From the NCBI GenBank assembly GCA_002104985.1, contig MCGO01000056.1:62001-126000 (forward strand): DNA of 64,000 nt, in the 5' to 3' direction. This document shows positions 6,875 to 53,096 of this stretch, one piece after another. A program made the position numbers and the translations under genes. Numbering within the stretch: the stretch's first letter is position 1; every line of letters starts with the position of its first letter. A model generated the notes under the pieces. It ran no database searches. It was not told the origin of the DNA and saw nothing but the letters and a program-made list of their open reading frames with translations. The stretch is from Rhizoclosmatium globosum (lineage: Eukaryota > Chytridiomycota > Chytridiomycetes > Chytridiales > Chytriomycetaceae).

Positions 6875-9800
6875 TCATGGCTTGTTAGTTGCCAGAATCG
6901 CCAATGGAACGTCATCGTCATCCGCCTCTGACTTCTTCTTTCCCATCCCACGTCCCATTACCCGAGAAAGTCCCATCATCATACTGTTGAGGGTTCCTTT
7001 ACTCTCCTTCTTCTTCATCTTGCCAAAGAATGAACTTCCCCCGGTTTCAGAATCAGATGCATCCGAATCTTGTGACGTCCAGGACGAATCCGATCCAATC
7101 GAGGATGTATCGGATCCCCGTGAATTGCGGCGTTTCTGACGTTCAGAGTACTCGGCAAGTTCTTCCGCCGCGTCACCCATACTTCGTCGCTTCATGTCCT
7201 TGAGTTCTGCCGCCTCTGCTGAGGAGAGTGTCACTAATGGAGTGATTCCATCCATGTAAGGCGTTTGTCCAAGTTTCACATCATCCGATTCTGATAACGT
7301 GTCCTCTTCTTCACTCAGCTTCTTGGACCGCTTCTTCTTGCCACCCTTCTTCTTCTTGCCCTTCTTCTTGCGAGGTCCTTGGCGTTGAAGTGTGACATCC
7401 GCGTGTACCGACAGAATATAGAGCATCAAATTAGACACCATGACTTGCTGAATCAAAGGACGACGGGGTTGTGCGAGTTTTGCATGAGAAAGTTGATCTT
7501 TTGATGAGTATGGAGGTTAGGGTTCAGCGCAAATACTATCTAATAAAATTCAACTCACAAATCGTTTTCTCAATGTGCAGAGGGAATCGAGGGAATCCGT
7601 TAAAGTGTGGATCGTTATGGTCAGGATCTGAAAAATTAACAAAGGATTAACAGGTGTCCAACCTGACCATTGCCAGTTATGCAAAATTACTACTTACAAG
7701 CAAAATGATCGTCAGTATCACTAATGATGGTAACTTCAGGAGACTGATGCAGTTCAGTATAAAGAGATTCTTGAGCGTCAATAGTTGCTGGAGCAGCACC
7801 AACAACAGTTTCGTTAGAATAAACTTCATCAGCCGACCAAGACCATTGTGGCTGTTGGTTCTGTTGCTGCATCTCAGCCTCGGTAATCTCAATCGTTGGA
7901 AGCGTTGGTTTCAACTCCTCGAAACGAGTTTCAGATTCAATCGCAATCGGTGCATACTGATCAACAACTGGACTCTCCTTCTTTTCTTCGACTCCATTAA
8001 CTACACTCAAGTCCACAGACGGAATCGGCGACGCCACTTTAACACCAGCAGTAACGTGGATATCATCTCCAATATGAGGTTCAGAAGCAGTAATTGAAGC
8101 AGCCTCAAACATAGAATCACTTTGCAATGAGCTGTGTCTGGATGGGAAAACATCCTTGCTCTCAGTAACAACAGGCCCCTCAGTAAATGAAACAGGTTCC
8201 TCTCTCAACACCTTATCCTCCCCCTCCCCAAGAATTTCAGGAGACACAGGTTCGGCAGTAATAACAATATGGCTTTCCTTGAATGAACGAGTTCGTGACA
8301 AAGTCGCCGACTCTCCAAAAGGAAGAATCAATTCATCGTCCAGAGGCTTTGGCATTGCCACATCCTCTTCACGTGAAACCCCCTCACTCACAGTTCCAGT
8401 CGCCTCGCTTGCAGAGTGCTGTTTACTTAGTAAGCTGCGCTTTCGCAATAAGCTTCCAAAGTCTCCTGTGTCTTCCAACACTGCCGCAGATGCATCGGAC
8501 TCAGCAAGGAGCTTTGCTGGGTGCACGTCGCCAGTACCAACATCGCCACCAGCGTTACCCGCCCAAAACAAGTGCGAAACGTCCCTGTGATTCAAAAGGA
8601 TGTCTTCGTGCAGAATGTGTTGGGATGCTGGAGTAGGGCTTGGTGGGAGCGGACTTCTTGTCAATGTGTTGCTTGGAGTGGTGCGGTTTTTCGAGGAGCG
8701 ACCGAGACTGCGATCGAGAGATGAGCGGTCATGACGAGGAAGAGAGGATGATTGGAATAATGATGGGTGGACGTCTTCAGAAAAGTCATTGAATTTACGG
8801 GTAAGGGTGAGGGGAGTAGCTGCTGTGGACGATGATTTTGTGGTGGTACGTCTCAGAGGCAATTCATCTGGTTGTGATTGTGGTTCAGGGGTACGTGTTT
8901 CAGGAGGGGCTGGTTTCTCCTCAGGTACGTCAACAGATTTTTGACGTAATGGCTTTGAGTCCAATTCTTCAGAGGTGTCAAAAGAGTACTTTTGGTACAA
9001 AGGCGCAGGTTTAGAGGCGGCATCTGCAGAGGAAGCAGCTGGTGGTGGTGGTTTCGAGAAATCAGGCGTCGATGACGGAGAAGCCTGCAAGGCAAGGAAT
9101 ACTCGTTAATTGGAAGGAAGCGTCTAAAGATTCCGGCTACAAACCTTAGGTGCCACTACAACAGGAGGAGGCGGAACAGCAGGACGTTGTGGAACCATGG
9201 GAACCACAGGTGCAACAGGAACCACTAACCCCGGAGATGGAACAGCATAGCCAGGAGCATACATAGAAACAGGTGGAGGTCCGGGGACCTAAAATGTGAA
9301 TAAAGGTGTTCGTAAGCAATCAATCTCCGCAACCACTGGTGCAACAAATACTACTAACAGGAGAACCAAATGCATTGACAGCCATGAAACCAGGTGGGGG
9401 AGGTCCTGGATAGCGTTGTTGTTGGAGTTGAGGAGGCATTCCAGGTCCTGGAGCGTAAACGCCGTTACCGCGCACATTGGCATATGCAAATTGTTGCTGC
9501 TGCTGTTGCAACTGCTGCTGTTGTTGAGCTTTCAAAGCATCGACTCTCGCACTTTGATCCAGACTCTCGGCACGTCCTCTTACAACAGGAACTGAAGGGG
9601 TGGGTGATGGAGTCTTAGCAACAGGAGGCTGCTGCTGTTCGTCCTTGCTGATACCGATTCCCCGCAGAATTCCCCGCTTCATTCCGCTCATAAAACCACT
9701 GAAGGACTTGGATGACGATGTTGAGGTAATGGAAGAAGTGTCATCATCCTTTTCACGCGGTTTCGTTGAGGCAGGTTTGAGCATTGATGCCATAGAAGGA

Positions 9801-10781
9801 GAGCGAGACTTCATGCGGTTCATTGGGGGAGCGGTTGATGCAGCCGAGGTAGTTGGCGGGGTAGTGGTTTGTTTCGCATTTGGGGGAGTGATGTTTCGGG
9901 TTGGAGGCAAGGGGGCCTGTTTCGGCTGGGAAGGATGCTGCTGCGAGTACAAGATTTGGTTGATGTTTGCAGCGTTTGATGGTTGCAACGGCTTTTGAGA
10001 AGGTTGTGGTTGGGAGGGTTGTTGGGCAGGAAGACCAGTGGGAGGCAAGCGCTGGTACTGGGCAGCCTGCATTTGCATCATCATTTGCTGCTGTTGTTGC
10101 TGCTGATACTGTTGCTGTTGTTGCTGATGCTGTTGGAGCTGCTGCTGGTGCAGGTGGGAGGATGATCGTGGTGGTTGCTGTAGCTGTTGCTGCTGGGGCT
10201 GTGGGTACGGCACGTACGGGGAAGGGTATGCCTGGGGCTGCATTTGGTACTGTTGTTGTTGTTGCTGTTGCTGTGGGTGCATTGGTAGGGGCATGGGCAT
10301 GGGAACAGGGACTGGCAGTGCATTGGGATAGTGGACAGGCTGCTGCTGCTGCTGCTGGCTGCCCGCAGGATACGGTTGCTGCGGGTACTGCTGAGCCATG
10401 TTCGCATACTGGGGTTGTTGCGGGTACGGGTACTGGCTGTACTGCTGCGGCTGCTGCTGTTGCTGTTGCTGCTGAGGATACTGTTGAGGGTAATAGCCTA
10501 CGGGGGTAGCTTGTAAGCATGCATTCACCTTGTATAGCCCAACCCATACACGATCAACCCAACCACCAACCTTGCTGTGCATAGTACTGTCCATTAAAGG
10601 GTCCTCCTAGGGGCTGCTGGTTCTGGTTCTGGTTCTGGTTTGGCACCGGATAACCTGGTTGTTGCTGCGTTCGGGACGAGGCTGAGCCACTCCCAGACGA
10701 CTGTCCGCCATATGATCGCTCTGATCCGGTAGACGGCGATGGCGACGGATGATGTGTCGTCTGTCTGGGGCTTCCACTCAT
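6875..10781 (-). CDS. ZDS1/ZDS2-family PP2A regulator, Gln-rich
   Basis: Six exons: 10781-10571, 10509-9359, 9288-9145, 9084-7698, 7627-7559 and 7497-6875. All joins keep frame, giving about 1194 aa. The N-terminal half is low-complexity, with long Gln, Pro and Asn runs. The middle is Ser/Thr-rich and acidic with many possible phosphosites. The recognisable part is the C-terminal module built across the last three exons: FPLHIEKTI, then YQLSHAKLAQPRRPLIQQV and MVSNLMLYIL. This is the Zds1 C-terminal domain, which in yeast binds PP2A-Cdc55 and acts in mitotic exit and Cdc14 release. A Lys-rich stretch (KKKGKKKKGGKKK) and an acidic Ser-rich tail follow. An in-frame ATG at 10817 is an alternative start. 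Confidence 0.85.
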
Positions 10782-17754: not shown

Positions 17755-20700
17755 ATGGCTGCAAATCCAAACATGGCTCGGCGGGCAACACTCATTGGTG
17801 TGCCCGCTGGAGCTACAGCTGCATTTGCTTTTATTTCAGGCGATCGTGTTAATGTTGCGAAATGGCTGAACGAAGTTGCTGCCTTCTTTGCTACTACAGG
17901 TAATGACTGTACTGTATTCCTACCCCCCACATCCACATCCCTTCTCACTGTCGCTTACTTAACTACCTGATTTCTAACGCGTCTTTACTATAGCTGCATC
18001 CGCTGTCGATCAGTTATCCCAGGCATTCACCCCCTCGCATCAACATGCTCAGTCGTCAAAGGCACTCGCACTCTCCCTCCTCGACCCAGATGCTGCAAAG
18101 TCCTACGTCCCAGTCACTCAAGACGACATTCTCGAAGGCCGAACAGTCCATGAGATGGTATATTCCTTCTCTTTCAATCTTATTCAAAAGGATTCCACTC
18201 ACACTTTGTTTGACAGGTCCGTCTCATTGCCATCCTCGGTCACTCAGACGACCGCGTTCGAACCGGTTCCGTTCTCCTCCTCGTCTCTCTCGCCAAAATA
18301 TTCTCTCCAAAAGTCAGTGCCGCCGTCCAGGAAAAGTATAATGAGAAAATAAACACCGTCATGCTTGGTCTCATGATGGCTGAACGCGGTAAGTCTTCCA
18401 GACTGAGTTTATTGAGGCAAAGAAAGCGCGAAATCACACGTGTTTTTCTCTTTTCGTTGGGTGCTATATATGGCATGAATGAAGGATTGGTTGGTGGACG
18501 CAATCAACTACAGAAATTCCCTTCACGCCATATGCATTACTGCATGCTTCTGTCATTTATCCTCATAAAGATTCTCACACTCCAAAACAGACTATCACGC
18601 CTCGGTGCACGAACTCTTCAAAATCATCGGCGCAGCATTTGCTGCAATGTCGATTCCCCTCGTTGCAGGCCTCGAAGCCTTCTTTACGTGTCTTGATTCA
18701 TCAGTTCGCGGAATCTGTATTTCAGCTCTTACCCGTATTATTCTCGAAAATGAACGTGTGTTTCTGGAAGAAGACCATTTGGCAGCAATTTGGAACTTGT
18801 ATTTCGCGTTGGGCTCAATTGCAATGATTTCGAGAGTATTTCCTGATAGAATTGATATTATTAAGGTGTGGCACTCCATTTTTGCTTTGGTTTCAATAAC
18901 ACATTAAATTAAAGGGTTTGGGATTGTTGGCACCAATTTATGCTGGAGTTGATTCTTCTCTGACATATGGAATCATTGGAACATTGATGCATCTTGAAAA
19001 TAAGGTTATATGCAATCCTCTTAACAATTCTATGCTAACCAAGAAACTTAAGACTGCCCTCGAAATCGACGAGATCAAATTCACAATGAAGCAATTATTT
19101 GACCGCCTTCCAGATCTCGATAAAAAGTTTCCTACAAGCACACATGCATATGGTACGAACTTGCCCATTACATAATCCCCCCACACACACTCATAAAAAC
19201 AAACAAACCATAAAGGAACCGGCTACAACTTCTTCCTCAATCTCCTCACCCCAACCAACGAGTTCGCATACGACCTCCTCCCATGGTCCCTTGAAACGTA
19301 CACCTCAATCGTCTACAAATCAAACCCACAAACAAAAGACACACCCTTCCCCCCGATCCCCTTCCAAGACGCCTACCCACTCCTCGACGACTTTATCAAA
19401 TCCCTCACGAACCATTTCCGCGCGTCCCCAGCCCTTGTTCGATACGGCGCTTCCGCCGCGCTTCACACGACACTTCAGATGTACCCGAAACTAAGCGACA
19501 CGTTCCCACAGTTGATGGTGTTCCTGCTTACGGGGTTAATGGACACGGACCATTTGAGCGCGTTTTTGTATATGGCGATGTTGGAGTACGTGTGCAGTCC
19601 TGCGGGTGGAGCGGGTGTGCCTGGTGCGCCTGCTGCGATGACGGCGGCGAAGGCGAGGGTTAGGGAGTTGATTGGACGGTGGAGGCGCCAGAGTGAGGAG
19701 GATGTTGTTACGTATGATATGTTGTATTTTGATATGGAGAGGGTTGCGGAGGTGAGGGTTGCGCCGCCTGTTACGCCTCAGCAGCAGGTTGGGAGGGGGC
19801 GGCGGGGGAGTAGTTTGGTACTTGGGGGTGTGCAGATGGCGACGTGGAATGATGTTACGATTAGTCAGGTGTTGGATGCGGCGGCAATTTTGACGCCGCC
19901 TATTGCACCCAAGTTGCTGCATAAGTTGATTAATTCGTTTGAGTATTTGACAAAGAGGTTGAAGTTGAAGCAGTTGGAGTTGGTTCGGCTTTGGGGTTAT
20001 AAGAGTGAGAAGGTGAGGTCTTGCTGCCAAACCTCATGCGGAGAACTGATTTTCTCTATAGTTTGATACGCATTTGATGCAAGCCATATTTCCACTCCTC
20101 AACAGCCATGATCAAGACATACAAATGGCAACGGCCCATGTTCTTAAGGCATTGATTCCACGGTTCAATTCTGCACATACTGCAGATATAAACTACGCTT
20201 GGGGACATTTGTATAATCTGATGAAACCTGGGTCAAGTGCTGTAAGTAACCTCTAGTCAGAAAATTTTTTTCTCCTCCTCCGTTGCACAGCCACCAATTT
20301 TTTTTTCTATTCCAATATGCTCTCCCAAGTCCGCAACAGCTTATTTTCCATATCCAGGAGCTTCTATGTAGCATTCTTGGTCTTATTCGTGATTTTCCAC
20401 TGGATAGATTGGGCGACGAAGCAAAGGAGGAGGTGAGTCTTTTCGCCCTTATTATTCAGATCTGAAGAAATCGAACTTTTATTTAGCTTCTTGACTCCTT
20501 GTTGAAAGTAATTTTCCATCCTGAGCCTCAAGTTCGCTACTTGGCCTATGATATTATTGGATCTTCAGGGGATTTTTGGAGAACCAGTTCTTTGTGGAGC
20601 ACTGCTCTTGGAATTATGTTCTTATCTCTCGGTGACCAAAATCTTGAATGGTAAGCATGAACTTCATTGATGTGGCTGATCACTGACACAAAATCAGTGT

Positions 20701-31161: not shown

Positions 31162-33387
31162 TCACACGACTGCATTCTGCGTGACGAATCCATTCGTACT
31201 ACGGGCAATATACGTTTCTTTCAGTTCCCGCACAGCCGTTATGTCAATTCCAAATAATCCTGCCAAGACTTGTTCTTCTCTCACTTCGAGCGCAACATCC
31301 TGATCCAAATCTTCATCGTCGTCGTCGTCGTCGTCATCCACATGGTCAACACTACTATGCGCAGGTAAAGATCCATTCATATGAGGATAATGCCATCCGC
31401 CACCACCAACGCCGTCTTCAACTTTAATCTTTCGGCTACCAAACGGCCTTCCCCCACGAACCAACAGCTGATGAGGAGACGATCCAGGCTCGCTACCATC
31501 CATCTTCCGTTTCTTATTGACGAGCTTCCGTTTACTCTTGAACCATGTCTTGATTTTCTCCACACTGACACCGATTTCGTTGGATATTTGAGCAGCTGCA
31601 ATGTCGTCAACGTAAGGAGACCGAAGGTAGTATGCATTTAGTGTAGCAGTTTGAGGAACGGTCAGCATATGGTATGACTTGAAGTCACTCGACTGGTGGG
31701 ATGCAGGTGGAGGCGAGGAGGTTGGTACACACAAGTCTTCGTCTTCTGGTGTCGGTGAAGTACTGCGTCTGCGTTTCTTCATGTTGAATCGCTTTCGGCT
31801 GAACCTTTGAACCAATTATGAGCGGACATCGAAAAGAATGCAGTGGCAATCGTACCATGTTTGAATTTGCTTCAAACTCAATCCCGTTCTATGAGAGAGA
31901 TCCAGTTCACCTTCTTCCGTTTCATAAGGTTGCTTCGCAAAGGAGTCATTCAGTATTTGCAATTGTTCCACGCTCAAGGGTGAACGAGGTTTTTGAACGT
32001 TGTGTTCAAATGACACGTCAGCTGGGGAGTCTCCCAGGTTACTTTCCGCGTCTGGACTTGCTTCAGTACATGGTGGAGAATTCAAGCCTGACTTCCGCAA
32101 AGTTGCTCGTTTGTTTGAAAACCTGAACGCCGTATGTAAGTCCAGATATATCAACGATCCATTCAACAACAGAACTCACCACATCCGTACTTTGTCCGCT
32201 GTGATTCCCACTTGCCGCGAGAGTTCCTCCGCCTGTCTGTTTTCTAGGTATGGTGACTGAGCAAACGCATTGTTGAGAATATCCATCCTCGACGTTGTCA
32301 TCACGCGGTGTGTTTTGATGGATGACACAGGAGACTGACTGTTTTCTTCTCTGTCGTCTCCAGAATCCGATTCCTCCTGCCGCTGCGTTCGCATCGACTT
32401 TCGTTTGTTGGCATACCTAATTTGCAGACATCTGAGTCAAAACCTACCCACCCAAGAATTCTCACTCACCAAATCCTGATCTTGTCCACAGAGAGTCCCA
32501 GCCGATCTGCAAGATAATCGGTATCTTCTGGCTGCAGGTACGGATTCTGCTCGAAAGCTGCTGTCAGATCTGCAATCTGTGCTGCCGTCAGCCGCTTCCA
32601 CAGCCGTCCGTCTCTGCTGCCTTCGTTGGATCCAACTTCAAAGTCGTATACTGGCTGCTGGGGCTGCACGGGCTGCTGGCCTTGCTGTTGCTGCTGCTGC
32701 TGCTGCTGTCTAGTTTCCCGCGGGGCCGTCGCCGCCTTCTGCTTCATAGTGTACCGTCTCTTTCCATACCTAAATACGAGAGGAATTGCAAGGAATACGT
32801 CAGTAAAGCAGTTCTCGTTGAGTGGGAAATTTTGCGTTTTCTCCCTTTCCCCCAATAAGCTCTCTCCCCCAAACCCAACGCACCAGTTATGCACTTGCTT
32901 CACAGTCAGGCCCAGCAACTCCGACAGCTCCGAGGCTTCATGCTCCTTCAGGTATTGGTTTACGGCAAAGCGGGAGGTCAGCACGGCGAGCTGCTCTGGC
33001 GACATTGTGTGGTGGTAAGACGATTTAAGCTTGGAACTGGGGCGGGAAGCTGAGGCAGTTGTGTGCATGCGGTATTCCCCGGAGAGACTGGCGATGGGGT
33101 TATGGATGGGTGGTGGCCCGGTGGAGAATGGCTGGCTTTCCAAGGGTAGAGACAAGGAAGCGTCAAGAAGGAGGGGGGCAATCTGTTGAGGTGGAATGCG
33201 TCGGAAAAAAAAAGAGCAAATCAAAAACTGGTTATTTAATTAAATTGCACCTGTCTAAAGATGGAATTGTTTTGATTTGGGGGGGGGGGAATACCTGGGA
33301 GTGCAGGGTGCTTGCTGCAGTGGGCTGGTCCTCCTCCTGGTTGCTGCCTCTCTTGCTAGTATCTATCAGGAACAGACACAGAATCAT
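31162..33387 (-). CDS. Five-homeodomain protein, left copy
   Basis: Six exons: 33387-33295, 33182-32884, 32769-32470, 32416-32180, 32122-31856 and 31804-31162; 612 aa, all joins in frame. Five homeodomains are seen with helix-3 cores NWYGKRR, IWYANKR, MWFSNKR, TWYSRKR and TWFKSKR. Trp48 is kept in all, but the DNA-contacting Asn51 only in the second and third; the others have Lys, Arg and Ser. The first four are each split by a phase-2 intron inside the Trp48 codon; the fifth is not. A Gln run separates HD1 and HD2. The tail has an acidic run and the motif EEQVLAGLFGIDITAVREL. It is a probable nuclear transcription factor. HD1-HD3 match the right copy exactly; HD4, HD5 and the tail differ. 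Confidence 0.9.
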
Positions 33388-33860
33388 GTGGCAATCGCGT
33401 TCCCTTCGAGGTTTACCCTATGAGCAGTTATTACCACACTGAATTCAGTTGCTACGACTTGGTGCATGTCGCCAGATGCTGCACATTCGCACTTACCACT
33501 CAAGTTGAGTGGTTCAAGTTTCTGGACATCAACAACCAAGAACCTTGTGAGGCTATTTCAACACCTCCCATTATTTCATTTTATTCTACGTGGATTGCAG
33601 TCAACGATGAAATCTCTGACATAGATAGTCTTGTGTATGCTGATTGAGTGTCGCAAGAATCAACACTGGCATTCAGCTTCATGTCAATTAAAACGTTAAA
33701 ATAAAGCATTGGACGCAAGTATTGTATTGTTGACGTCGTCTCAACATACAGTCGATAGTCCCTCCCACACCTCTACAAAGACAACGAGCAACGAATAGAG
33801 ATAATCATAATAAGAGATAGAGGAATGAATAAGCACTGAGCAAGTGATCTCACACATCAC
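33388..33860. promoter_or_regulatory. Spacer between homeobox and CDC25, left arm
   Basis: This 473-bp stretch lies upstream of the homeobox start and downstream of the CDC25 stop, so it should hold the homeobox promoter and the CDC25 3' UTR. A 75-codon plus-strand frame (33420-33647) is open here and in the other arm, but most differences between the copies change the amino acid, so I do not call it a gene. No TATA box or terminator can be fixed by eye. Confidence 0.5.
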
Positions 33861-35578
33861 TTCATGTCCGAAAGAATCCAGTCGAATAACACCTCTTGAA
33901 CTCCCTCTTCTGAAGTGCCGAACACTGATCCAGTTCCTTCTTGTATGCTGGATCATTCATAGCAATATATCCGTCAGGCGAGCAGTGGCCCTATTGGTTG
34001 AAAGTGTGAGTGCCTTCTTCTTCCAAACTGAATCAAACTGACCTGGAACTTTTTGTGGAATGCTTCATATCCACCTTCAAGAATGTACATTTGTGGATAG
34101 TCTAAATAGGGGTATTCTGAGATATTCACATTGCGGTCATGGTTTCGCAGATGGAGACCCCTGAAAGAAGGTTGAGCCATTACCAAACGAGTGAATCACT
34201 CTCACATTCTTGGAGCACGCTGCGCACTGAACTCGCAGTGGAATATAACAACTCGTGGCTTGCACGCTGGGATCGGAAAGAACTTGGACTCAAGAACAGC
34301 TGTCGTGTTGACGTTCTGTGCACCACGGATGTGTCCTCCTGCATATTCATAGGGCTAAATCCCAAACTAGTCAGAGTGAAGTTGGTAATGAAGAGAAACA
34401 CGTACGTATCGGCAGTCGATAATGACATATTCTTCAAAAACAGTTTGGTACTTTCCTTCAAGAACATCAGCAAGCTGTCAGAGTATCTTTAGCGACACGA
34501 GCCAATAAGGAACAATCAAATAGACTCAAACGGTTTCGGGTGTAATGCGCTTCAGTGCATCTCGGCATGTTTCGCTGCAAGGAAGAAGATGTTCAGTCGT
34601 TTCACCACAATCCATGGCCGAAGTCTTGCGGATCTTCTCCATCGGCGGTGAATCCATCAGTCTCGAGTCAAGAGGAGAGGATCCAAGAAGTGAATCGGCA
34701 GTGTCCCCAAACTTGCTGTTGTGGGGTCGATTCCTTGACAGCATTGATTCTGAGGCTGACCCAGAACACTCAGAAGCATCTTGCATATCCATATCCATGT
34801 CCATAGCACGATCTCGCTTCTTCTGAACAACTGGGTTGGGCTGTGGCTGTATCGTTAGTGTTGACAACATCCCATCCCGCACAGCCAACATACTTTCGGC
34901 ACAGCCGATCCAAATCCTGTCAGAGTACTTGGAGCAACCTTCAATGCAGCTTTCGCAGCTGGTTTAGGAAGACCCGTGGGTATATTGCTTCGTTGATTCC
35001 AGTGCGAAACGCTTCCGGACTTTCCAGTGGGGAATGGCAGCCTTGGAGGTTTCGCGAGGCCCGCACGCGCTCCAAATACCGGGTTTGCCTTGTTAGTATC
35101 TTTGTTCTCCATCTTGCGTCTGTAAAACGCGTTGTTATTGTCAGTAATGGCATGTTAACTCGCCAGACAAACAACGCACCCAAGAACAAAGCTTGCTTCC
35201 TCCAGCTCTGGCGACGATGGAATCCGGCCAGACTGGTTGATTCCCGAGTGCTCCAGCCGTGGTAAACACGTTGCATGGCGAGTAAAGAGCCTGGCGCCAG
35301 CCTGTCTGTGACTGGACATAGAGGGGGCAAAGGGAGAGTCCTCCTCGGGATCCTCCACCATCATGGCATCACTGAAGCCCTTGAATAACCTGTTGGAACT
35401 GCCAATAGTGTCAGAATAGATGGTATACCTCAGGGAAACGCGGTAGGGAAAGCCATACAATGGCATACATGTACCTTGGACAGCGTGATGGGGATACAGC
35501 CAGTACAGTCTCTGTCTGAGCATTCGTGGGACTGCCGAAGCCTACCATGCCCGCCTTCAATGCACCCGGTCCAGACAT
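33861..35578 (-). CDS. CDC25: CDC25 M-phase inducer phosphatase, left copy
   Basis: Eight exons; 442 aa expected by analogy with the right copy, whose joins were all checked. The N-terminal half is Ser/Pro-rich and regulatory (SPPMEKIRKTSAMDCGETT). The C-terminal rhodanese-type catalytic domain contains LADVLEGKYQTVFEEYVII, DCRYPYEYAGGHIRGA, the CX5R loop HCEFSAQR, and YPQMYILEGGYEAFHKKF. CDC25 removes inhibitory phosphates from Cdk1 Thr14/Tyr15 to trigger mitosis. ATG 35578 faces the Miro ATG 88 bp away. Only a handful of residues differ from the right copy, in the regulatory half (for example PHNSKFG against PRNSKFG). No break is seen, so both copies should be functional. Confidence 0.92.
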
Positions 35579-35666
35579 GATACTTTGGGATTGTTGAAGT
35601 TAAGTTATTATGAAAAAGAGGGTTACTTTTGTTCCTTCTTTTTATTGTTCCATTCGATAACCTGAG
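35579..35666. promoter_or_regulatory. Bidirectional CDC25/Miro promoter, left arm
   Basis: Only 88 bp separate the CDC25 start codon (minus strand) and the Miro start codon (plus strand). It must contain both 5' leaders and probably a shared core promoter. The stretch is AT-rich, with T- and A-runs around 35600-35645. The same arrangement is preserved in the other arm. Confidence 0.6.
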
Positions 35667-38360
<2,694 letters not shown>

Positions 38361-38394
38361 AGAAAGAAAAGAGAAAGAAAGTATAAAATTATTG

Positions 38395-41300
38395 ATGGGA
38401 GATAGGGAGAAGGAACCACTTGCACCAGACAAGGAAAGGCACGATGACAAGGAAGCAATCGGCAGTCGCAGTGCACGCATTCTCCAACTAGCGCGAGCCA
38501 CAATGTCTGCGTACGAGGAAAGCGGGCCAGTGAGTGCCCGGCAGCTCCACGTTGCAGCAGCCTCGACGCCGCTTGTTGCCTTCTGGTTGACAGTTCTTCT
38601 TGTTGTTGGACTGTTGTCGTTGGGCGTCCTTGATTCGGTTGTGAATTCAGGTAAAGTACAAAGTACAAAGAACGAGCAGTGAAGATGAAGACCCTAACAC
38701 CAACAAAAACAATAAATTAAAAACCAGGTGTTCGGTGGCTCGGACGTGACTCGTTCGTCGTTGCTGCTCTTCTCGCGGCTGCGTTGGCGTTTAATGCGGC
38801 CCTTGTTCGCCGCGAGTGGCGTCTGGCAAAGACTGAACTGCAAAGTACGTGCCTTCTCCCCTTTATCTGCATTAATTGGTTGATAATCGTATTCGCAACA
38901 GATCGCTTAAAGTCTGTGCTTGATGGCCTCGAACTGGCGTCTCGTGGACTCGGCGATACTCTCGGCCTAGGAAAGGTGACTAGTCTTACTCATTCTTGGG
39001 CTTCGCACAAATCTAAACATCCTTAGTTCCAAGCCGATAACCATCTTCCAACAAATATTGCATCCGTTACGGTCGCACGTGTTTTAATTGATGGATCTAT
39101 CTGCTATGCACCCTTCAACCTTCTCCTTGAAGGGGATATTGTTCAACTTGCTTTCGGAGACAAAGCACCTGCAAAGGCTCACTATTGTAATTCAGATGGT
39201 GTGTTGAATACGCGTATCCCTGCGATTCTCGAAAAAGGCCAGCTCCTCAAACCAGCAACTTTTAATATTGATGCATCCGCTCTTCAATCAGAGTCTCGCT
39301 CTACTCGCGGTCAATTCTACTTTAAACTGCTCGAAACTCCTCTTGTGGATACCGTCCATTCTATTTTGCATTCAAAACGTCCTGACTCGGTCATCTATCA
39401 CCAATTATATATCATCACAGCCACTTTAACTACACGCGTCATTTGGTTCATTCTCGGTGCCTCCTTTATCATAAATGTCTTTCGTTATGCCTTCAACTCC
39501 TCTTCAAAAGAAAAACGCGCTGAAGAAGCCATCTCGTTGCTATTTAACCTGCCTCTGTATGCCGTATTGCCTCTTCTACCATTATCTCTGCCATTTATTA
39601 CTCTTGTTGCTCGTTCTTTCGGAAATGCACAGATTATTTGTCTCCACGAAGCACTACAGGCCTCCAAAGAAGATTTCAAGGACGAAGAAAACATTGTAAG
39701 GTGAACTATCAACTGCTTTCCTTTATCTTACCACCGATAGGACGAATTCGACGCAGCTCCTCCTCCAACAAAGGAAGTCCAAACAGACTACAAAGCAATC
39801 TGGACTGCCTTTGTGTCACAAATCATGAACCGCCCGTCAACACCTCACCACAGTCAGAACCATAATGCAGCAGGGACACCCAGCCACTTCAACTCAGGCC
39901 TCCTTTCACGCACAACAAACTTGGTAGAAAGTCTTGCAAGCGCGACTGTGATTTGTGCAATTGATCGTGAAGGCACAGTCAGCATGCCGTTCCCCACAAT
40001 TGATAGTTTGTTTTTCTTGCAAGATGGCGGTGCAGAGGATTGTACTCCAGCCCTTGCTCCTGCAGCCGTCAACAATACCGCAATGGCAATTAATGCAAAT
40101 ATACTTGGGGAAATGAATGAGACTCCCAATGGAAGTCTTGTCGCAAGTAATGTCGTTGGAGCTGGGGTTACTGTTGGCAATGGTGTACCAGGTGCTGTTG
40201 TGAATGGCCTTGTCGCAGGAAACCAGTCCACACCAACTAGTACAGCTGCTGTTGCTGTTACAGGGTTTGGGAATATTGCGGCCGCAGCTGCAGCGGAACC
40301 AGTTGTTTTGGACTTGAAGGAAGAAGGGTCAGCTACGTTTGGGTTACGCTTTGAAGACAAGGATTGGCGAGACTATATGGGAAGTTTGAAGCCTCTTGGA
40401 CTTAGTCTGTTATTGAGTACAAGCTGTGCAAGCCCAGTGAGTGCGAATGGAGGCGCTGGAATTGTTTCAGATGGGATTGGGGGTGACACTGTCGCTAGCG
40501 CGAAACAACGAAGATTGAAGCGAGTGCGAACTGAAAATCATCGTAAGCCGAACGTGTTTTGTATTGATGGACGCGTGAAACCGGCACGTCAGACATGTCT
40601 GTGTCGTGTTGGGAGGGAAATCGGGTTTCAAGACTCGGTTGTTGAAAGCTTTTCGTCCATCACTGCTGTTCACTGGTACAGTCCGAAAATTGAGTCTCTC
40701 CTCACAAGCGGTGGCAGCAATGGTCGAAGTAGCGACTACCACTTCGAAGTCCCCAGCTCAAATTCTCAAATATTTTTGGACACGCTCACTGGAGATTGCC
40801 AAGTGTTTTCGGATGGAAACGTTGAACTGATTGTGGAGTCTTGCGTCGACTATTGGAATGGGAGTGACTTGGAATTAATGACGGATGCAGTTGAAAAGAA
40901 GATCTTTGAGTTTTATCAAAACGCCGTATATAATGACATGCAGGTATATGATCGAGTGAAGTTTTGTAATTCACTAACCACTCATAAAAGGTGATTGCGT
41001 ATTCATATAGGCCTATACCCAGTAGCAATACTGCCCAAACGCTAACAACGAAAACGGCTGCTTATGTTGAACGCAATGCATCATTTGATCTTCCGAAAAA
41101 TAATGAAGAGGATGAACAATTACGTTCAGAAATGGCTGGTTCGGTTCGATGGAAAAACAAATCAAGCCGAATAGCCAGTATTATTGACTCACCATTATAT
41201 GCAGACTCTTTAGAGCCTGATGCGTATTTGCGTGAAGTTCTAAGGTGTCAAACATTTTTGGGGATGGCCGCATTATGTTACGAACCAAAGCAAGACATTT

Positions 41301-42848
41301 CAAATGTCATTGAAGATTTGAAGTTGGTGAGTAGTTTTTGCACCTTTTTTTGTGACATACATTTGTATTCAAGCTACAATTTTCAGGCAGGAATTCGGTT
41401 TGTGTATTTCAGTGAAGCTCCTGAACGAGAAAGCAAAGCATATGCTGAACGTCTTGGTCTTGAAATTGATTGGAACTCTTGCATTATCTTGTCATCATCC
41501 GATGGATCGCCAGGGTACCTTGAATTGCACGACATGAAGGCCCAGCTTCCACGCGGAGTCGAAAACATCAGAGGCCATATCGAACGTGTTGACGACGTTC
41601 CTTTACGAGTTTCACTCTTTGCTGAGTCATCTCCCTACAGCGTTTTGGAAATGATCAAAATCTTTCAAGAAAATGGTGAAGTTGTATGCTGTATTGGAAG
41701 TTCTCTAAATGAAACCAATGTGGAATCGTTTGCGACTGCGGATATATCTGTTGCAATTGATCCATTTGTTGCGTTGAAAACGAAAAGGGGTGAGAACGAT
41801 CCACTTGCACCTTTGGTACTTGGAGCAGGAGTAACGACTTCACCTTGCGCATTGAGATTCTACTTTGACACGAGTGTCTACAGTCTTACTCAATTAATCC
41901 GCGAAGCTCGTACACTTGTGGTAAATGCACAACAGGTTTGTTGATTCTTTACCACAACTTCACAATTTTAAATCAACGAAAGGGGTTTTCATTCCACTTT
42001 GGTTGTCAAATGTCACTTTCAGGAATAATGCTGGTGTCCTACATCTTTTTGCTGCCTCCTATTCTCACTGGATATCAACTATTGTGGTTGATGTGGGTCA
42101 TTTTCCCACTTCAATCCATTGGATTCTTGTTCACTCCTCATGATTCTGCGATAATGACGATGATGCCAGGTATACTTTGTAACTTAACATCCGGATGAAG
42201 CTTAATGTTCAATCATTCAGTGAAAAATAATGACCACTTGAAAGATCGCTGGCGATCCGCCCGGTACTACGCAACAAGGTTTGCTATGCCAACCATTGGA
42301 AGTGTTGCAGTTTTCATTTTATCTTTGTGGCATTTCATGGGTGACCAATCCGACTGGAAAACTGTGTTTGGGTCGTTTGGAACGGTTTCTTGGATGCGTT
42401 TATCGGACGCAGAGCTGTCAGCATTGCTATATGCTCAGCATATTTTATTGGTGTACTTTGTGTTGGCTATTGTGACCGCATCGTCGACGTTCTTGAGCAG
42501 AACGCGAACTGTTTGGGAGTTACCGCCGTGGAAAAATAGGTCTTGGATGATAGTATCAGTTATAACGTGAGATTGTATTTTTGTGTTTTACTGTCGTATT
42601 TACTCTCTTTGTTCAGCATTGTACTCCAACTGACTTTCTCTGCTATTTCATTATACACGGGTCCAACATCTGCTGTCACGTTGAACGCGTTGCCCTGGCA
42701 TATCATTTTCGTTATTTGTTTTGGAATAGTGATCAATATTCCAATTCAGGAGGTAGTCAAACGGTATGATAAGCAGAATTGGGTCAAGTCTCAGAAACTT
42801 GCCCAATTACAGTTTAATACTAAGCTGGGCATGCATTCCCCATTGTAA
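38395..42848 (+). CDS. TMEM94-like degenerate P-type ATPase
   Basis: About nine exons, roughly 1,300 aa. Order: two N-terminal membrane helices (STPLVAFWLTVLLVVGLLSL, FVAVAALLAAALAFNAAL); an actuator-like domain (LLLEGDIVQLAFGDKAPA); two more helices (LYAVLPLLPLSLPFITLV); a long cytosolic domain; and about six C-terminal helices from 42000 on. Where ion pumps have DKTGT it reads CAIDREGTVSMPFPTID, so the acyl-phosphate Asp is kept but the motif is not. This resembles TMEM94 (KIAA0195/ERMA), a P-type ATPase-like ER protein linked to magnesium. The hinge-like segment LVLGAGVTTSP also lacks the usual GDGxND. Transport activity is uncertain. The gene sits in the palindrome spacer, 34 bp after left Miro. 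A downstream ATG at 38503 is an alternative start. Confidence 0.75.
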
Positions 42849-42910
42849 TTTGTGCTTTGTAATAAACAGAATCGTAAATCTTTTTGGAATTGTCACTTTT
42901 TTCAAAAACA

Positions 42911-45844
42911 ATGCCCCGCGGTCGAAGCAGAGAACGAGATGAAGAGAATCAAAGCCGCAAACAAGAAGATGTACCGGACAGCGATCAAGATATCTCGATA
43001 GAACAACGACGAAAAGAAAAGAAGGAGAAAGACATAAAGAAGAAAAAGAGGAAAGGGAAGAAGGACAAAAAATCGAAACGGTCCCGAAGCCGTAGTAAAG
43101 ACAAAAAAAAGAAGAATCGTTCGGATTCTGCTGGTAGCTATGATCGAAAACTGGACAGAGAGGGATTCGCGGAAAATGGGTTTGGGAAAGGACACAATAT
43201 GTTTTCACACGTCGGAATGGCTCCTGAAGACTTTGAAGGATACGTCTGTAACATAAAACTGATCAAGACGGATCCTCTCATTGCGGATGCAATGGTGCTG
43301 CATCCAGTTGTGCGCGTACACATCATAGGTTAATTCCTGATGATTCTTGCAACATCTGCTGATGGAACATTTTAGACGCTTCAACAGGACATTATGTTCG
43401 AAAGAATCCGGAGGTTCCAGCAACAACGTTCAACGAAGGGGCTGTTATTGACTATATCTTGCCAACAATGACCAAGGTTTAACTCCAAAGGAATATTCAT
43501 AGCACTAATAGTCCGGGCAGCCATACAGCTTCCAGAAGCATCAGTCTACAGCAGCGTCCTGGAATGAGGATATTTTGATAATTTGCGAATACCTCAGTTT
43601 GATGAGAGAATCGACAATCATATTCTTTGAGATTCTAGATTTTGGGACTATGGGCAACAATAACGAGTGCGTAGCGTTTTATTTGGAAAACTGATTTTAA
43701 AGTTCGCCTTAAGAAACAATGATGGCTGGCGTCGAGTTGCTTGGGCATTTGTGAAGCTAGTTGCAGGACATGGTCAATCAAACACAGAAAAAGAGCTTCG
43801 ACTTCAGCTCTTTCAATATCCTGGAGGAGGACATCAGTTAGTTTCAGCAGCACACCAATTGCTGACACAGTCAGCGATTCGGGCAGGTGCTCATGCATCA
43901 CAGGACAGTGCAAACACTGAAACAATACCATATGTGTATGAATGTTGGTTAAGTGGAAAACGTGACATTTATCCATCCACGATGTGAGTGAAAACTTGTC
44001 TTCTTCATCGTTTTTGAACGGGCAACCAGGTTTGTCAACATTTCAGGAAAACCTTGTCCAATTCCTATCCATGTAACCACAAGACCGCGAAATGGTTTGT
44101 GTTATTGAAACATGGCGACTACTAATGGCAATATGCAGCCGCTGAAATCGAACGAGGAAAACTAACTTACGAGCAAGTATGTCTTTGAAATGCAATATCT
44201 ATCCCTAACATCAAATAGCTTATGGATGAGTATTTATCACGAAGAACTAATTTTGGAGAGGCAATTTTGAACATTCCTGGCAAAGTAATAGTCACTTTGG
44301 TCCCTTCGCGATTGACTTGTTTCCATAGCCCACTTGGCGCAGGCTTCAGGGGCAAACCTGTAAAATTCCCAAAAAGCTTCTTTTTTCTGTACATAGTGCT
44401 CAGTAAGTCTGAAAATAAGCTTCATGTCATTCTAAAGCTAAGTAGGGGATCCTTTGCTTGTAAATATTCTTCAAGTGGCTTATACCTAGCCGTTTCTTGC
44501 TTCAATTGTTCCGAATATCATATAAAAATATATGATGCAGTGAAAGGGGAGAAAGTGACATCCGTCGATGGTCATCAAAACATCGTATACGACATAGCTT
44601 GGGCTTCAGATATAGAGTGAGATCCTACAAACCGCTAAACATCATTTAAATTATTTTATCTTAGTATTTTTGCGTCAGCATCAGCTGATGCAACCGTGAG
44701 AGTGTATCAGTCTCATGCCGACCACTCTTTCCAACCAACCGCAATCCTTTATCATCCGACTTATGTATACACAGTGTTCTTCCATCCGGAATTTTCTATG
44801 AATCATATCATTGCGTCTGGGTGTGCAGATTCAGTGATTCGTATTTGGCAATTAGAAAGCCTTGTGCCACATAACCACACTCATCTCAAAAACCAAACAC
44901 GACCTATCGTATATTGTTATGGACATACAGCCACTGTAAATACTTTAATTTTTGACGGGGAGGGTAAAAAGATGTTTTCTGGAGACGGGGCAGGCGATTT
45001 ACGAATCTGGAGCTGTCAAGGAGGAATCATGAACGAACAAGGGCAAACCATTCCTTTTTCTGTTGAATGCATAAAAGTTATCAATCTTGTAAGTAAGAAA
45101 AATACCGCCGTTGTGTAAACTAAGGAGCAACAATAGGATCATGGAATACGAAGTTTGTCTATCAATCCTACAGGTCGAAAAGTTCTTATATTTTTAACAA
45201 CAAATGAACTACATTCGCTGGATACAAGAATCTATCGGCTTATGACAAAGTTCAGCGGAATTCCAAACACCTTCACTCGAAAATCGGAACAATCTTCAAT
45301 ACAAGCAAAGGCAACACTTTTGGCTCGTGCTATATTTTCTCCATGCGGGACGTATGTGTTTGCAAGTGGGTCTGACGGGAGAGTGTACGTCTGGAAATCC
45401 GAAACAGGAGCATTGATGCATGTGTATAACGTCCCTGGAATCAATCGACAAGTTGTAGATATATCATTTCACCCACGAGATCATTATATAGCGTTTAGTG
45501 CGTGGGGAAACTCAAATACCGTTGGGGGGCATCAACCTGTAACAGTATACACTTGGGATGATGAGCAAGATGATACAGTTGATAGAAGAATATCAGTTGT
45601 TGCCAAAAACGTCATGTCTGGATTGGCTGATAGTCTCAGCAAAACAAGTATCACACACGTTGACTCCGATCTGAACTATGGCCTCATTAGAACAAAAGCG
45701 AGAGCGCCCGTGGATTCAAAACTGAGGGCCTTACGGCATGCAGCAGATGAAGTTATCCAAAAAATGGCCAATCAACCAAGAGCTATAAGTCAAACAAGAA
45801 TGCATGCATATAAAGGAGAAGGAAGAATGTCAGTAATAGATTGA
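42911..45844 (+). CDS. AHI1: Jouberin (AHI1) homologue
   Basis: About nine exons, roughly 790 aa. A very basic Lys/Arg/Ser start leads to the jouberin N-terminal C2-like domain: MVLHPVVRVHII-DASTGHYVR, then IDYILPTMTKPYSFQKH and TIIFFEILDFGTM. WRRVAWAFVKLVAGHG and ECWLSGKRDIYPSTM also align with human AHI1 segments. The WD40 propeller follows, with YDIAWASDIE, SASADATVRVYQS, HPTYVYTVFFHPEF, SGCADSVIRIWQL, FSGDGAGDLRIWS and FASGSDGRVYVWKSETG. The C-terminal SH3 of the mammalian protein is absent. Jouberin acts at the ciliary transition zone, so the organism should make a flagellum. The gene is in the palindrome spacer and converges on right-arm Miro, with 27 bp between stops. Confidence 0.88.
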
Positions 45845-45871
45845 TTTTTGATGATGAAATATATTCAAGTT

Positions 45872-48572
<2,701 letters not shown>

Positions 48573-48660
48573 CTCAGGTTATCGAATGGAACAATAAAAA
48601 GAAGGAACAAAAGTAACCCTCTTTTTCATAATAACTTAACTTCAACAATCCCAAAGTATC
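48573..48660. promoter_or_regulatory. Bidirectional Miro/CDC25 promoter, right arm
   Basis: 88 bp between the Miro ATG (minus) and the CDC25 ATG (plus), the same length and near-identical sequence to 35579-35666. It is AT-rich, with homopolymer runs. Both copies of the shared promoter were duplicated with their genes, so expression of the copies may be equal. Confidence 0.6.
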
Positions 48661-50377
48661 ATGTCTGGACCGGGTGCATTGAAGGCGGGCATGGTAGGCT
48701 TCGGCAGTCCCACGAATGCTCAGACAGAGACTGTACTGGCTGTATCCCCATCACGCTGTCCAAGGTACATGTATGCCATTGTATGGCTTTCCCTACCGCG
48801 TTTCCCTGAGGTATACCATCTATTCTGACACTATTGGCAGTTCCAACAGGTTATTCAAGGGCTTCAGTGATGCCATGATGGTGGAGGATCCCGAGGAGGA
48901 CTCTCCCTTTGCCCCCTCTATGTCCAGTCACAGACAGGCTGGCGCCAGGCTCTTTACTCGCCATGCAACGTGTTTACCACGGCTGGAGCACTCGGGAATC
49001 AACCAGTCTGGCCGGATTCCATCGTCGCCAGAGCTGGAGGAAGCAAGCTTTGTTCTTGGGTGCGTTGTTTGTCTGGCGAGTTAACATGCTATTACTGACA
49101 ATAACAACGCGTTTTACAGAAGCAAGATGGAGAACAAAGATACTAACAAGGCAAACCCGGTATTTGGAGCGCGTGCGGGCCTCGCGAAACCTCCAAGGCT
49201 GCCATTCCCCACTGGAAAGTCCGGAAGCGTTTCGCACTGGAATCAACGAAGCAATATACCCACGGGTCTTCCTAAACCAGCTGCGAAAGCTACATTGAAG
49301 GTTGCTCCAAGTACTCTGACAGGATTTGGATCGGCTGTGCCGAAAGTATGTTGGCTGTGCGGGATGGGATGTTGTCAGGACTAACGATACAGCCACAGCC
49401 CAACCCAGTTGTTCAGAAGAAGCGAGATCGTGCCATGGACATGGATATGGATATGCAAGATGCTTCTGAGTGTTCTGGGTCAGCCTCAGAATCAATGCTG
49501 TCAAGGAATAGGCCACGCAACAGCAAGTTTGGAGACACTGCCGATTCACTTCTTGGATCCTCTCCTCTTGACTTGAGGCTGATGAATTCACCACCGATGG
49601 AGAAGATCCGCAAGACTTCGGCCATGGATTGTGGTGAAACAACTGAACATCTGCTTCCATGCAGCGAAACATGCCGAGATGCGCTGAAGCGCATTACACC
49701 AGAAACCGTTTGAGTCTATTTGATTGTTCTTTATTGGCTCTTGTCGCTAAAGATATTCTGACAGCTTGCTGATGTTCTTGAAGGAAAGTACCAAACTGTT
49801 TTTGAAGAGTATGTCATTATCGACTGCCGATACGTACGTGTTTCTCTTCATTACCAACTTCACTCTGATTAGTTTGGGATTTAGCCCTATGAATATGCAG
49901 GAGGACACATCCGTGGTGCACAGAACGTCAACACGACAGCTGTTCTTGAGTCCAAGTTCTTTCCGATCCCAACGTGCAAGCCACGAGTTGTTATATTCCA
50001 CTGCGAGTTTAGTGCGCAGCGTGCTCCAAGAATGTGAGAGTGATTCACTCGTTTGGTAACGGCTAAACCTTCTTTCAGGGGTCTCCATCTGCGAAACCAT
50101 GACCGCAATGTGAATATCTCAGAATACCCCTATTTAGACTATCCACAAATGTACATCCTTGAAGGTGGATATGAAGCATTCCACAAAAAGTTCCAGGTCA
50201 GTTTGATTCAGTTTGGAAGAAGAAGGCACTCACACGTTCAACCAATAGGGCCACTGCTCGCCTGACGGATATATTGCTATGAATGATCCAGCATACAAGA
50301 AGGAACTGGAGCAGTGTTCGGCACTTCAGAAGAGGGAGTTCAAGAGGTGTTATTCGACTGGATTCTTTCGGACATGA
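48661..50377 (+). CDS. CDC25: CDC25 M-phase inducer phosphatase, right copy
   Basis: Eight exons with every join verified in frame: 48661-48764, 48841-49059, 49120-49345, 49393-49707, 49765-49833, 49885-50033, 50079-50196 and 50249-50377; 442 aa. Catalytic loop HCEFSAQRAPRM lies at about residue 335, with DCRYPYEYAGGHIRG before it and YILEGGYEAFHKKF after it. A Met/Asp repeat (DRAMDMDMDMQD) lies near the middle. Family role: dephosphorylation of inhibitory Thr/Tyr on mitotic Cdk. Substitutions relative to the left copy are confined to the regulatory region; the catalytic domain appears unchanged. A second full CDC25 may raise dosage or allow separate control. Confidence 0.93.
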
Positions 50378-50851
50378 AGTGATGTGTGAGATCACTTGCT
50401 CAGTGCTTATTCATTCCTCTATCTCTTATTATGATTATCTCTATTCGTTGCTCGTTGTCTTTGTAGAGGTGTGGGAGGGACTATCGACTGTATGTTGAGA
50501 CGACGTCAACAATACAATACTTGCGTCCAATGCTTTATTTTAACGTTTTAATTGACAAGAAGCTGAATGCCCGTGTTGATTCTTGCGGCACTCAATCAGC
50601 ATACGAAGGACTATCTATGGTAGAGATTTCATCGTTGACTGTAATCCACGTAGAATAAAATAAAACGATAGGAGGTGTTGAAATGGCCTCACAGGGTTCT
50701 TGGTTGTTGATGTCCAGAAACTTGAACCACTCAACTTGAGTGGTCAGTGTGAATGTGCAGCATCTGGCGACATGCACCAAGTCGTAGCAACTGAATTCAG
50801 TGTGGTAATAACTGATCATAAAATAAGCCTAGAAGGGAACGCGATTGCCAC
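50378..50851. promoter_or_regulatory. Spacer between CDC25 and homeobox, right arm
   Basis: Counterpart of 33388-33860 and the same length. It holds the CDC25 3' end and the region upstream of the homeobox start. It differs from the left copy by roughly one base in twenty over the best-aligned part, more than the flanking exons. Differences include an altered segment just upstream of the homeobox ATG (50810-50832), which could affect its promoter or leader. Confidence 0.5.
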
Positions 50852-53096
50852 ATGATTCTGTGTCTGTTCCTGATGGATACTGGCAAGCGAGGCAGCAACC
50901 AGGAGGAAGACCAGCCCACTGCAGCAAGCACCCTGCACTCCCAGGTATTCCCCCCCAAATCAAAACAATTCCATCTTTAGACAGGTGCAATTTAATTAAA
51001 TAACCAGTTTTTGATTTGCTCTTTTTTTTTCCGACGCATTCCACCTCAACAGATTGCCCCCCTCCTTCTTGACGCTTCCTTGTCTCTACCCTTGGAAAGC
51101 CAGCCATTCTCCACCGGGCCACCACCCATCCATAACCCCATCGCCAGTCTCTCCGGGGAATACCGCATGCACACAACTGCCTCAGCTTCCCGCCCCAGTT
51201 CCAAGCTTAAATCGTCTTACCACCACACAATGTCGCCAGAGCAGCTCGCCGTGCTGACCTCCCGCTTTGCCGTAAACCAATACCTGAAGGAGCATGAAGC
51301 CTCGGAGCTGTCGGAGTTGCTGGGCCTGACTGTGAAGCAAGTGCATAACTGGTGCGTTGGGTTTGGGGCAGAGAGCTTATTGGGGGAAAGGGAGAAAACG
51401 CAAAATTTCCCACTCAATGAGGACTGCTTTACTGACGTATTCCTTGCAATTCCTCTCGTATTTAGGTATGGAAAGAGACGGTACACTATGAAGCAGAAGG
51501 CGGCGACGGCCCCGCGGGAAACTAGACAGCAGCAGCAGCAGCAGCAACAGCAAGGCCAGCAGCCCGTGCAGCCCCAGCAGCCGGTATACGACTTTGAAGT
51601 TGGATCCAACGAAGGCAGCAGAGACGGACGGCTGTGGAAGCGGCTGACGGCAGCACAGATTGCAGATCTGACAGCAGCTTTCGAGCAGAATCCGTACCTG
51701 CAGCCAGAAGATACCGATTACCTTGCAGATCGGCTGGGACTCTCTGTGGACAAGATCAGGATTTGGTGAGTGGGAATTCTTGGGGGTGGTTTTGACTCAG
51801 ATGTCTGCAAATTAGGTATGCCAACAAACGAAAGTCGATGCGAACGCAGCGGCAGGAGGAATCAGATTCTGGAGACGACAGAGAAGAAAACAGTCAGTCT
51901 CCTGTGTCATCCATCAAAACACACCGCGTGATGACAACGTCGAGAATGGATATTCTCAACAATGCGTTTGCTCAGTCACCATACCTAGAAAACAGACAGG
52001 CGGAGGAACTCTCGCGGCAAGTGGGAATCACAGCGGACAAAGTACGGATGTGGTGAGTTCTGTTGTTGAATGGGTCGTTGAGATATCTGGACTTACATAC
52101 GGCGTTCAGGTTTTCAAACAAACGAGCAACTTTGCGGAAGTCAGGGCTGGATTCCCCGCCTTGTACAGAATTAAGTCCTGATGCAGAAACATCTTCAATG
52201 AGTTTCTCCCGTTTCAATTCAAAATCCCACAACTCGTTGGCACCAGAACAGTCTCTTATATTGAATGAAGCGTTTGCTCGGAATCCGTATGAAACTGAAG
52301 AAGGTGCAAAGGAGTTAGCGGATCGAACGGGATTGAGTGTGAAGCAAATTCAAACTTGGTAAGCGCACTTTTTTTTTCTTCCATTCCAACTCTTACACCC
52401 TATTTCCTCAATGTCTTTAGGTACAGCCGTAAGCGATTCAATACCAAAAAGAGAAAACGGAGCGCCAGTCCTAGCGGCGACAACCAAACCCAATCATCGA
52501 CTGACTTTAAATCGTACCATATGCTGACGGCATCCCAAACCGCCACATTAAACGCGTACTATATGCGGTCCCCGTACATTGACGACATCACGGCTGCCCA
52601 GATATCCAACGAAATCGGCGTGAGTGTCGAGAAAATCAAAACGTGGTTCAAGAGTAAACGGAAAATTGTAAACAAGAAACGGAAGATGGAAGGTGGGAGT
52701 GTAGAATCAATGGCCGGACAAGAGCAGCATCAGTTACTGAACCGAGGCGGAAGGCCGCTTGGTAGCCGAAAACGGAAAGTGGATGTGTATGATTCAAACG
52801 GGGTCAAAGTAGAGAATTCAGGATGGTATCATCCAAATTCGAATGGTGGTCCTGTTGGAACTATAGCTGAAGCCGCGGAATCTGCAGAAGGAGTTTGGAG
52901 TGGAGATGAATTTGAGGAACCGGACATTGGGGGAGATAACCATAATGATGATGATGAGGACGACGATGATGATGATGACGATGATGAAGAATTGGACCAA
53001 GATGTAGAATTGGAAGTACAAGAGGAACAGGTTTTAGCTGGATTGTTTGGAATCGATGTGACCGCTGTTCGGGAATTGAGGCAAACTGTTCAATAA
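50852..53096 (+). CDS. Five-homeodomain protein, right copy
   Basis: Six exons: 50852-50944, 51053-51351, 51466-51765, 51816-52052, 52110-52358 and 52421-53096; 617 aa, all joins in frame. Exons 1-4 have the same lengths as the left copy, and HD1-HD3 are identical in protein. HD4 differs at about a third of positions (LNEAFARNPYETEEGAKEL against LNDSFAKQPYETEEGELDL). Asn51 is present only in HD2 and HD3. The four inter-homeodomain introns all fall after the second base of the Trp48 codon. The acidic tail contains a long Asp/Glu run encoded by GAT repeats (52945-52990) and EEQVLAGLFGIDVTAVREL, but stops earlier than the left copy. It is probably a transcription factor; its targets are unknown. 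Confidence 0.9.

Follow-up and report, generated by a model that had tools for sequence, protein, structure and literature searches.

Gene-bearing palindromes maintained by conversion have been described mainly on sex chromosomes, where the usual reason given for them is escape from absent crossing over. Inverted repeats around a flippable segment also characterize the flip/flop mating-type inversion of Komagataella and Ogataea, in which flipping has been demonstrated; there, the mating-type genes lie in the flipping part, whereas the homeobox genes of the chytrid locus described here lie at its outer ends. In mammalian sex-chromosome palindromes, gene conversion operates from arm to arm (PMC8981503, PMC3403216). 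The chytrid locus has in common with them inverted gene-bearing arms, a unique spacer, a near-identity ascribed to conversion, and, on mixed evidence, a hint of raised G+C content in the arms (PMC8981503, PMC3403216), and it probably works like these palindromes. It differs in the length of its core (6.2 kb versus a 37-kb median in the mammalian simulations of PMC8981503) and in its lower identity (98.4% in the core versus about 99.95%; PMC8981503, PMC3403216). Unlike in the mammalian palindromes, homogenization of the chytrid arms would stop inside genes, and there is no sign of a sex chromosome.

Willow W-chromosome palindromes are described as old, with arms that are nearly identical in part only and for which gene conversion was inferred (PMC7023750), and the chytrid locus resembles them in each of these respects. 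In willow, support comes from read depth and from a comparison of two species that included both arms (PMC7023750); in the chytrid, it comes from the arms of one genome. Template switching between short inverted repeats in yeast likewise homogenizes inverted arms and can invert the spacer (PMC8604942); the yeast repeats are short, whereas the chytrid arms are kilobases long and carry multi-exon genes. Among the matches listed in our literature search, which had partial coverage, none described this locus, and none reported a chytrid palindrome undergoing conversion. The phenomenon is of a known type, and the lineage is unusual for it.

Organization and copy number of the palindrome

We analyzed a stretch of 64,000 nucleotides (the window), which corresponds to positions 62,001–126,000 of a 282,808-base contig in the 56.9-Mb assembly (420 contigs) of Rhizoclosmatium globosum. 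Comparison of the 64-kb window with itself by BLAST revealed one inverted pair far beyond chance (31,495–38,347 versus 52,694–45,885; 6,880 columns, 95.2% identity overall). Together with the gene models in both arms, this bears out the gene-bearing palindrome proposed in a sequence-only reading of this DNA: two inverted, near-identical, gene-bearing arms of 7.2 kb surround a unique spacer of 7.5 kb, and each arm carries, from outside to inside, a homeobox, a CDC25-like, and a Miro/Gem1 gene (Table 1). The nearly constant mirror sums given in that reading were reproduced, with 84,239 at those homeobox, CDC25, and Miro ends that lie in the core, 84,232 for the Miro stops, and 84,258 for the homeobox stops. 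Our hand-made models bear out its statement that frames remain open and splice sites intact in all six gene copies: in these models all introns are GT-AG (25 of 25 in the left arm, 25 of 25 in the right arm) and internal stops are absent. The likeness to "ampliconic" palindromes drawn there is not supported as worded, as only two copies were found and we saw no sign that the locus is amplified or lies on a sex chromosome. Among the best candidates scored in the whole assembly, the left-arm DNA query returned no copies beyond these two, and the Miro and CDC25 protein queries returned no further match above 26 bits; in the equivalent search with the homeobox protein, other homeobox genes scored more weakly (best 36 bits, among the best candidates scored).

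Table 1. Coordinates of the palindrome and its genes (positions within the window)
Feature	Position	Strand	Description
Left arm	31162..38360		homeobox (-), CDC25 (-), Miro (+); self-BLAST and gene models
Right arm, inverted	45872..53096		Miro (-), CDC25 (+), homeobox (+); self-BLAST and gene models
Spacer	38361..45871		7,511 bp
Putatively homogenized core, left arm	32087..38310		98.4% identity to right arm; 97 substitutions in 6,214 aligned sites
Putatively unhomogenized outer end, left	31162..32086	-	homeobox exon 6 plus the larger part of exon 5; ~66% identity to right
Putatively unhomogenized outer end, right	52153..53096	+	same homeobox part; start approximate, by mirror position
Left homeobox gene	31162..33387	-	6 exons, 612 aa
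Left homeobox exons	33295-33387, 32884-33182, 32470-32769, 32180-32416, 31856-32122, 31162-31804	-	
Right homeobox gene	50852..53096	+	6 exons, 617 aa
Left CDC25-like phosphatase gene	33862..35578	-	8 exons, rhodanese-type domain, 442 aa
Right CDC25-like gene	48661..50377	+	8 exons, 442 aa
Left Miro/Gem1 gene	35667..38360	+	14 exons, 625 aa
Right Miro/Gem1 gene	45872..48572	-	14 exons, 625 aa
CDC25/Miro shared intergenic region, divergent starts	35579..35666		88 bp, 0 differences between arms
Spacer gene 1, TMEM94-like ATPase	38395..42848	+	10 exons, 1,322 aa
Spacer gene 2, WD40 gene	42910..45844	+	WD40 domain found; putative extent

The homeobox protein contains five homeodomain matches, the same number as in its Obelidium relative, and GTPase and EF-hand-associated domains were found in Miro. 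In most homeodomains encoded by the homeobox genes (31,162–33,387 and 50,852–53,096), an intron splits the codon for the conserved Trp, and relatives of this five-homeodomain fungal protein occur in Obelidium, Siphonaria, and Podochytrium. The second spacer gene is presumably jouberin-like, a name taken from the sequence-only reading. Miro ends about 30 bases from its neighbor on both sides (45,844–45,872 and 38,360–38,395); the right copy stands tail to tail with the WD40 gene, and the left copy ends just 5' of the TMEM94 start.

Other repeats on the contig

Further repeats were observed on the same contig outside the window. A second inverted duplication (contig positions 148,091–155,881 with 176,803–184,583) is 98.7% identical over 7.8 kb and overlaps WD40 and ribosomal protein S4e genes; within this duplication there are four copies of the S4e piece, which are 99% alike. 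A third (7,071–9,888 with 17,870–20,667; 95.3%) overlaps a gene for a class II tRNA synthetase. Direct repeats form an array at 132,815–147,790, with units of several kilobases that are 97–99% alike, with inverted partial copies at 185,938–187,841.

Divergence along the arms

Substitutions and indels scattered between the arms had been noted before, but the arms are unevenly alike, with 98.4% identity in the core and 66% at the outer end. The core has five indel events, all of them intronic, and both of its edges fall within genes, namely in homeobox exon 5 and in the last Miro exon. The differences nearest to the outer edge, on either side of it, are at 32,086 and 32,150. Beyond this edge, the left outer end (31,162–32,086), which encodes homeodomains 4 and 5 and the acidic tail, shows 286 differences in 848 aligned sites plus 199 gap columns. 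The arms disagree at 132 of 264 third codon positions in the outer homeobox exons versus 34 of 1,366 in the core (Fisher p = 4e-86). Because the outer-end intron also differs between the arms (26 of 51 sites), the step at the outer edge is not due to selection on the protein. At the inner edge, the final 50 bases of Miro show differences at 7 of 17 third positions and at 5 of the 33 others; in a short stretch picked post hoc (38,318–38,348), 5 of 11 third positions differ versus none of 20 first and second positions, a pattern that would represent the old silent divergence once more, as far as so short a stretch, chosen after the fact, can be read. Outside both pairs of stop codons the arms no longer align well. 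Since homologous coding sequence at the level of the old divergence continues past the core, the duplicated block once spanned at least the region bounded by the ends of the homeobox and Miro genes. Judging from the alignment, only the interior of this block appears young and both ends appear old, and with old ends around a young core the arms are older than their identity suggests.

We interpret the locus as an inverted duplication of old date in which arm-to-arm gene conversion has homogenized the interior repeatedly, and assign this reading a probability of about 80%. A block of three genes (homeobox, CDC25, Miro) would have been duplicated in inverted orientation long ago, and the middles of the arms would have been overwritten again and again by gene conversion, one arm templating the other. 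The arm ends would have escaped conversion and retained their old divergence, with ~6.2 kb being held 98.4% alike. As a result of a converted middle and escaped ends, the homeobox pair would have near-identical fronts (homeodomains 1–3) and differing backs (homeodomains 4–5 and the tail). We infer that copying was arm-to-arm and recurrent, and likewise that the arms are physically linked in the way the assembly shows them. Conversion as the cause of the similarity, which the sequence-only reading had extended to the arms in general, is thus the favored explanation for the ~6.2-kb core and not for the whole 7.2-kb arm as one homogenized unit.

Patchiness, selection, and base composition of the core

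Of 3,458 silent-like sites in the core, 88 differ between the arms, and these differences are clumped (dispersion 3.56 versus a shuffle mean of 0.98; none of 20,000 shuffles as high). The longest run free of silent differences (36,777–37,732) extends across several introns, and 6 of 20,000 shuffles contained one as long. After exclusion of the homeobox–CDC25 intergenic stretch, 0 of 20,000 shuffles matched the dispersion and 12 of 20,000 the run; for the clean run within Miro alone, 4 of 20,000 shuffles were as long. This clumping would suit several conversion events of differing age better than one, and part of the patchiness of the core could stem from uneven mutation or from mixing in the consensus. 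A single recent event is an alternative that would account at once for the two edges and for the low divergence of the core as a whole: on one occasion, break-induced copying would have put sequence from one old locus in place of the middle of the other. Such edges would likewise result from a single recent block replacement between old inverted loci, which leaves patchiness alone to point to several events. We nevertheless regard a single event as unlikely: rates may vary among introns, intergenic, and coding sites, but the silent differences are clumped far beyond chance, also without the intergenic stretch.

The core coding sequence of Miro differs between the arms at 0 of 1,219 first and second positions versus 13 of 609 third positions (p = 6e-7), and that of CDC25 at 7 of 886 versus 15 of 443. 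These distributions show purifying selection on the copies, and both arms are alive. GC3 is 0.63 in the inner and 0.44 in the outer part of the homeobox gene, compared with 0.41 in TMEM94. The raised GC3 of the inner homeobox part is as expected from GC-biased conversion, and the G+C evidence overall is mixed: GC3 is 0.49 in CDC25 and 0.55 in Miro, the core has a G+C content of 0.479 versus 0.461 in the right flank, and strong/weak differences from arm to arm are even (44 to 43), which is neutral on GC bias.

Relatives and age of the duplication

The closest named proteins come from Rhizoclosmatium, Siphonaria, Obelidium, and Podochytrium. Relatives were compared by one homeobox copy each, that is, by one end type per relative. 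In its outer part, the left homeobox protein is identical to R. hyalinum P0001 at 282 of 288 positions (98%) and the right one to Rhizoclosmatium sp. JEL0117 P0002 at all 294 aligned positions (100%), compared with 175 of 258 (68%) between left and right. The inner parts of the left and right proteins are identical at 320 of 322 positions, and the relatives reach 99.6–100%. Because each of these two relatives has one of the two end types, at 98–100% identity, the duplication must predate these Rhizoclosmatium splits. In a tree of the outer homeobox part, which carried long-branch warnings, the left and right types group apart from Obelidium, Siphonaria, and Podochytrium, and the duplication is probably younger than the split from these three genera.

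Homeobox, Miro, and TMEM94 genes are on contigs of equal listed size in Siphonaria (20,290), Podochytrium (27,318), and Obelidium (670,442), from which we infer that they share a contig in each genome; this suggests a single block adjoining TMEM94 as the ancestral state. The Siphonaria homeobox and TMEM94 genes, again with equal listed contig size, have the locus tags 009818 and 009821. The single-copy relatives seemingly have the homeobox gene, two more genes, and then TMEM94, as in the left arm. A past flip of the spacer was considered from this left-arm-like gene order and from the slower-looking right homeobox end. We do not claim it, because among three outgroups the rate difference was significant with Obelidium alone (23 to 6, p = 0.002) and not with Siphonaria (20 to 12, p = 0.22) or Podochytrium (14 to 9, p = 0.40), and because of the long-branch warnings.

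The TMEM94 protein of R. hyalinum, from a protein cluster of five members, has a listed contig of 9,934 bases, i.e., the length of the spacer plus 2,423, and the left-type homeobox protein of this species is labeled "partial" from exon 3, which is 682 bases inside the core. The contig sizes and the label fit short reads breaking at two near-identical arms and are suggestive only. In JEL0117, the right-type homeobox gene and Miro have equal listed contig sizes.

Integrity of the assembly

A mis-join of haplotypes or of two separate loci in mirror order is improbable, and more so than a single replacement event. Three compared 3.1-kb contig pairs are 97.4, 95.7, and 96.3% identical and look like haplotypes or recent duplicates; with pairs 96–97% alike, haplotypes are partly separate in the assembly, and a mis-join is therefore worth weighing. 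The homeobox ends, however, are 34% apart in DNA and are not alleles at the 3–4% level. Equal-scoring contig pairs recur across the assembly searches, but most Cpn60/TCP1 contigs are outside such pairs. A further fold-back-like pair on the same contig would also be in line with a mis-join, whereas the two flanks of the palindrome are unlike each other and single-copy in the assembly where tested, as is the one sampled kilobase of the spacer (39,500–40,500). All 13 differences in the Miro core coding sequence are at third positions, unlike sequencing error. The shared listed contig size of the two JEL0117 genes and the R. hyalinum contig and "partial" homeobox, as from short reads broken at the arms, also speak against an artefact. 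The earlier argument against a simple mirrored artefact is thus upheld by the end divergence and the third-position differences, and the haplotype mis-join that it had left standing has become unlikely.

A recent inverted duplication that has yet to diverge, with a faster-evolving homeobox end, would match the core, which looks young when taken alone, and can be dismissed as extremely improbable because the outer silent sites and intron differ at about half of their positions, which selection on the protein does not explain, and because the homeobox end types also occur in other species.

Implications

Beyond recurrent conversion of an old inverted duplication, one may envisage a palindrome that holds two transcription factors together at their fronts while their backs specialize: conversion would lock homeodomains 1–3, CDC25, and Miro as a matched pair, the exon 5 boundary would free homeodomains 4–5 and the tail, crossovers in the core could flip the spacer, and the locus might determine sex or stage in this chytrid. 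As one joint claim this is speculative, and we consider it very doubtful.

If a clear case of arm-to-arm conversion came from a chytrid, and from a contig that bears two other inverted duplications with genes, it would demonstrate that a sex chromosome is no requirement for the process. Tract edges, bias, and spacer inversion would then be measurable in an organism that can be cultured. With core edges in coding exons, the locus would constitute a natural experiment, with concerted evolution of one half of a protein pair and separate evolution of the other.
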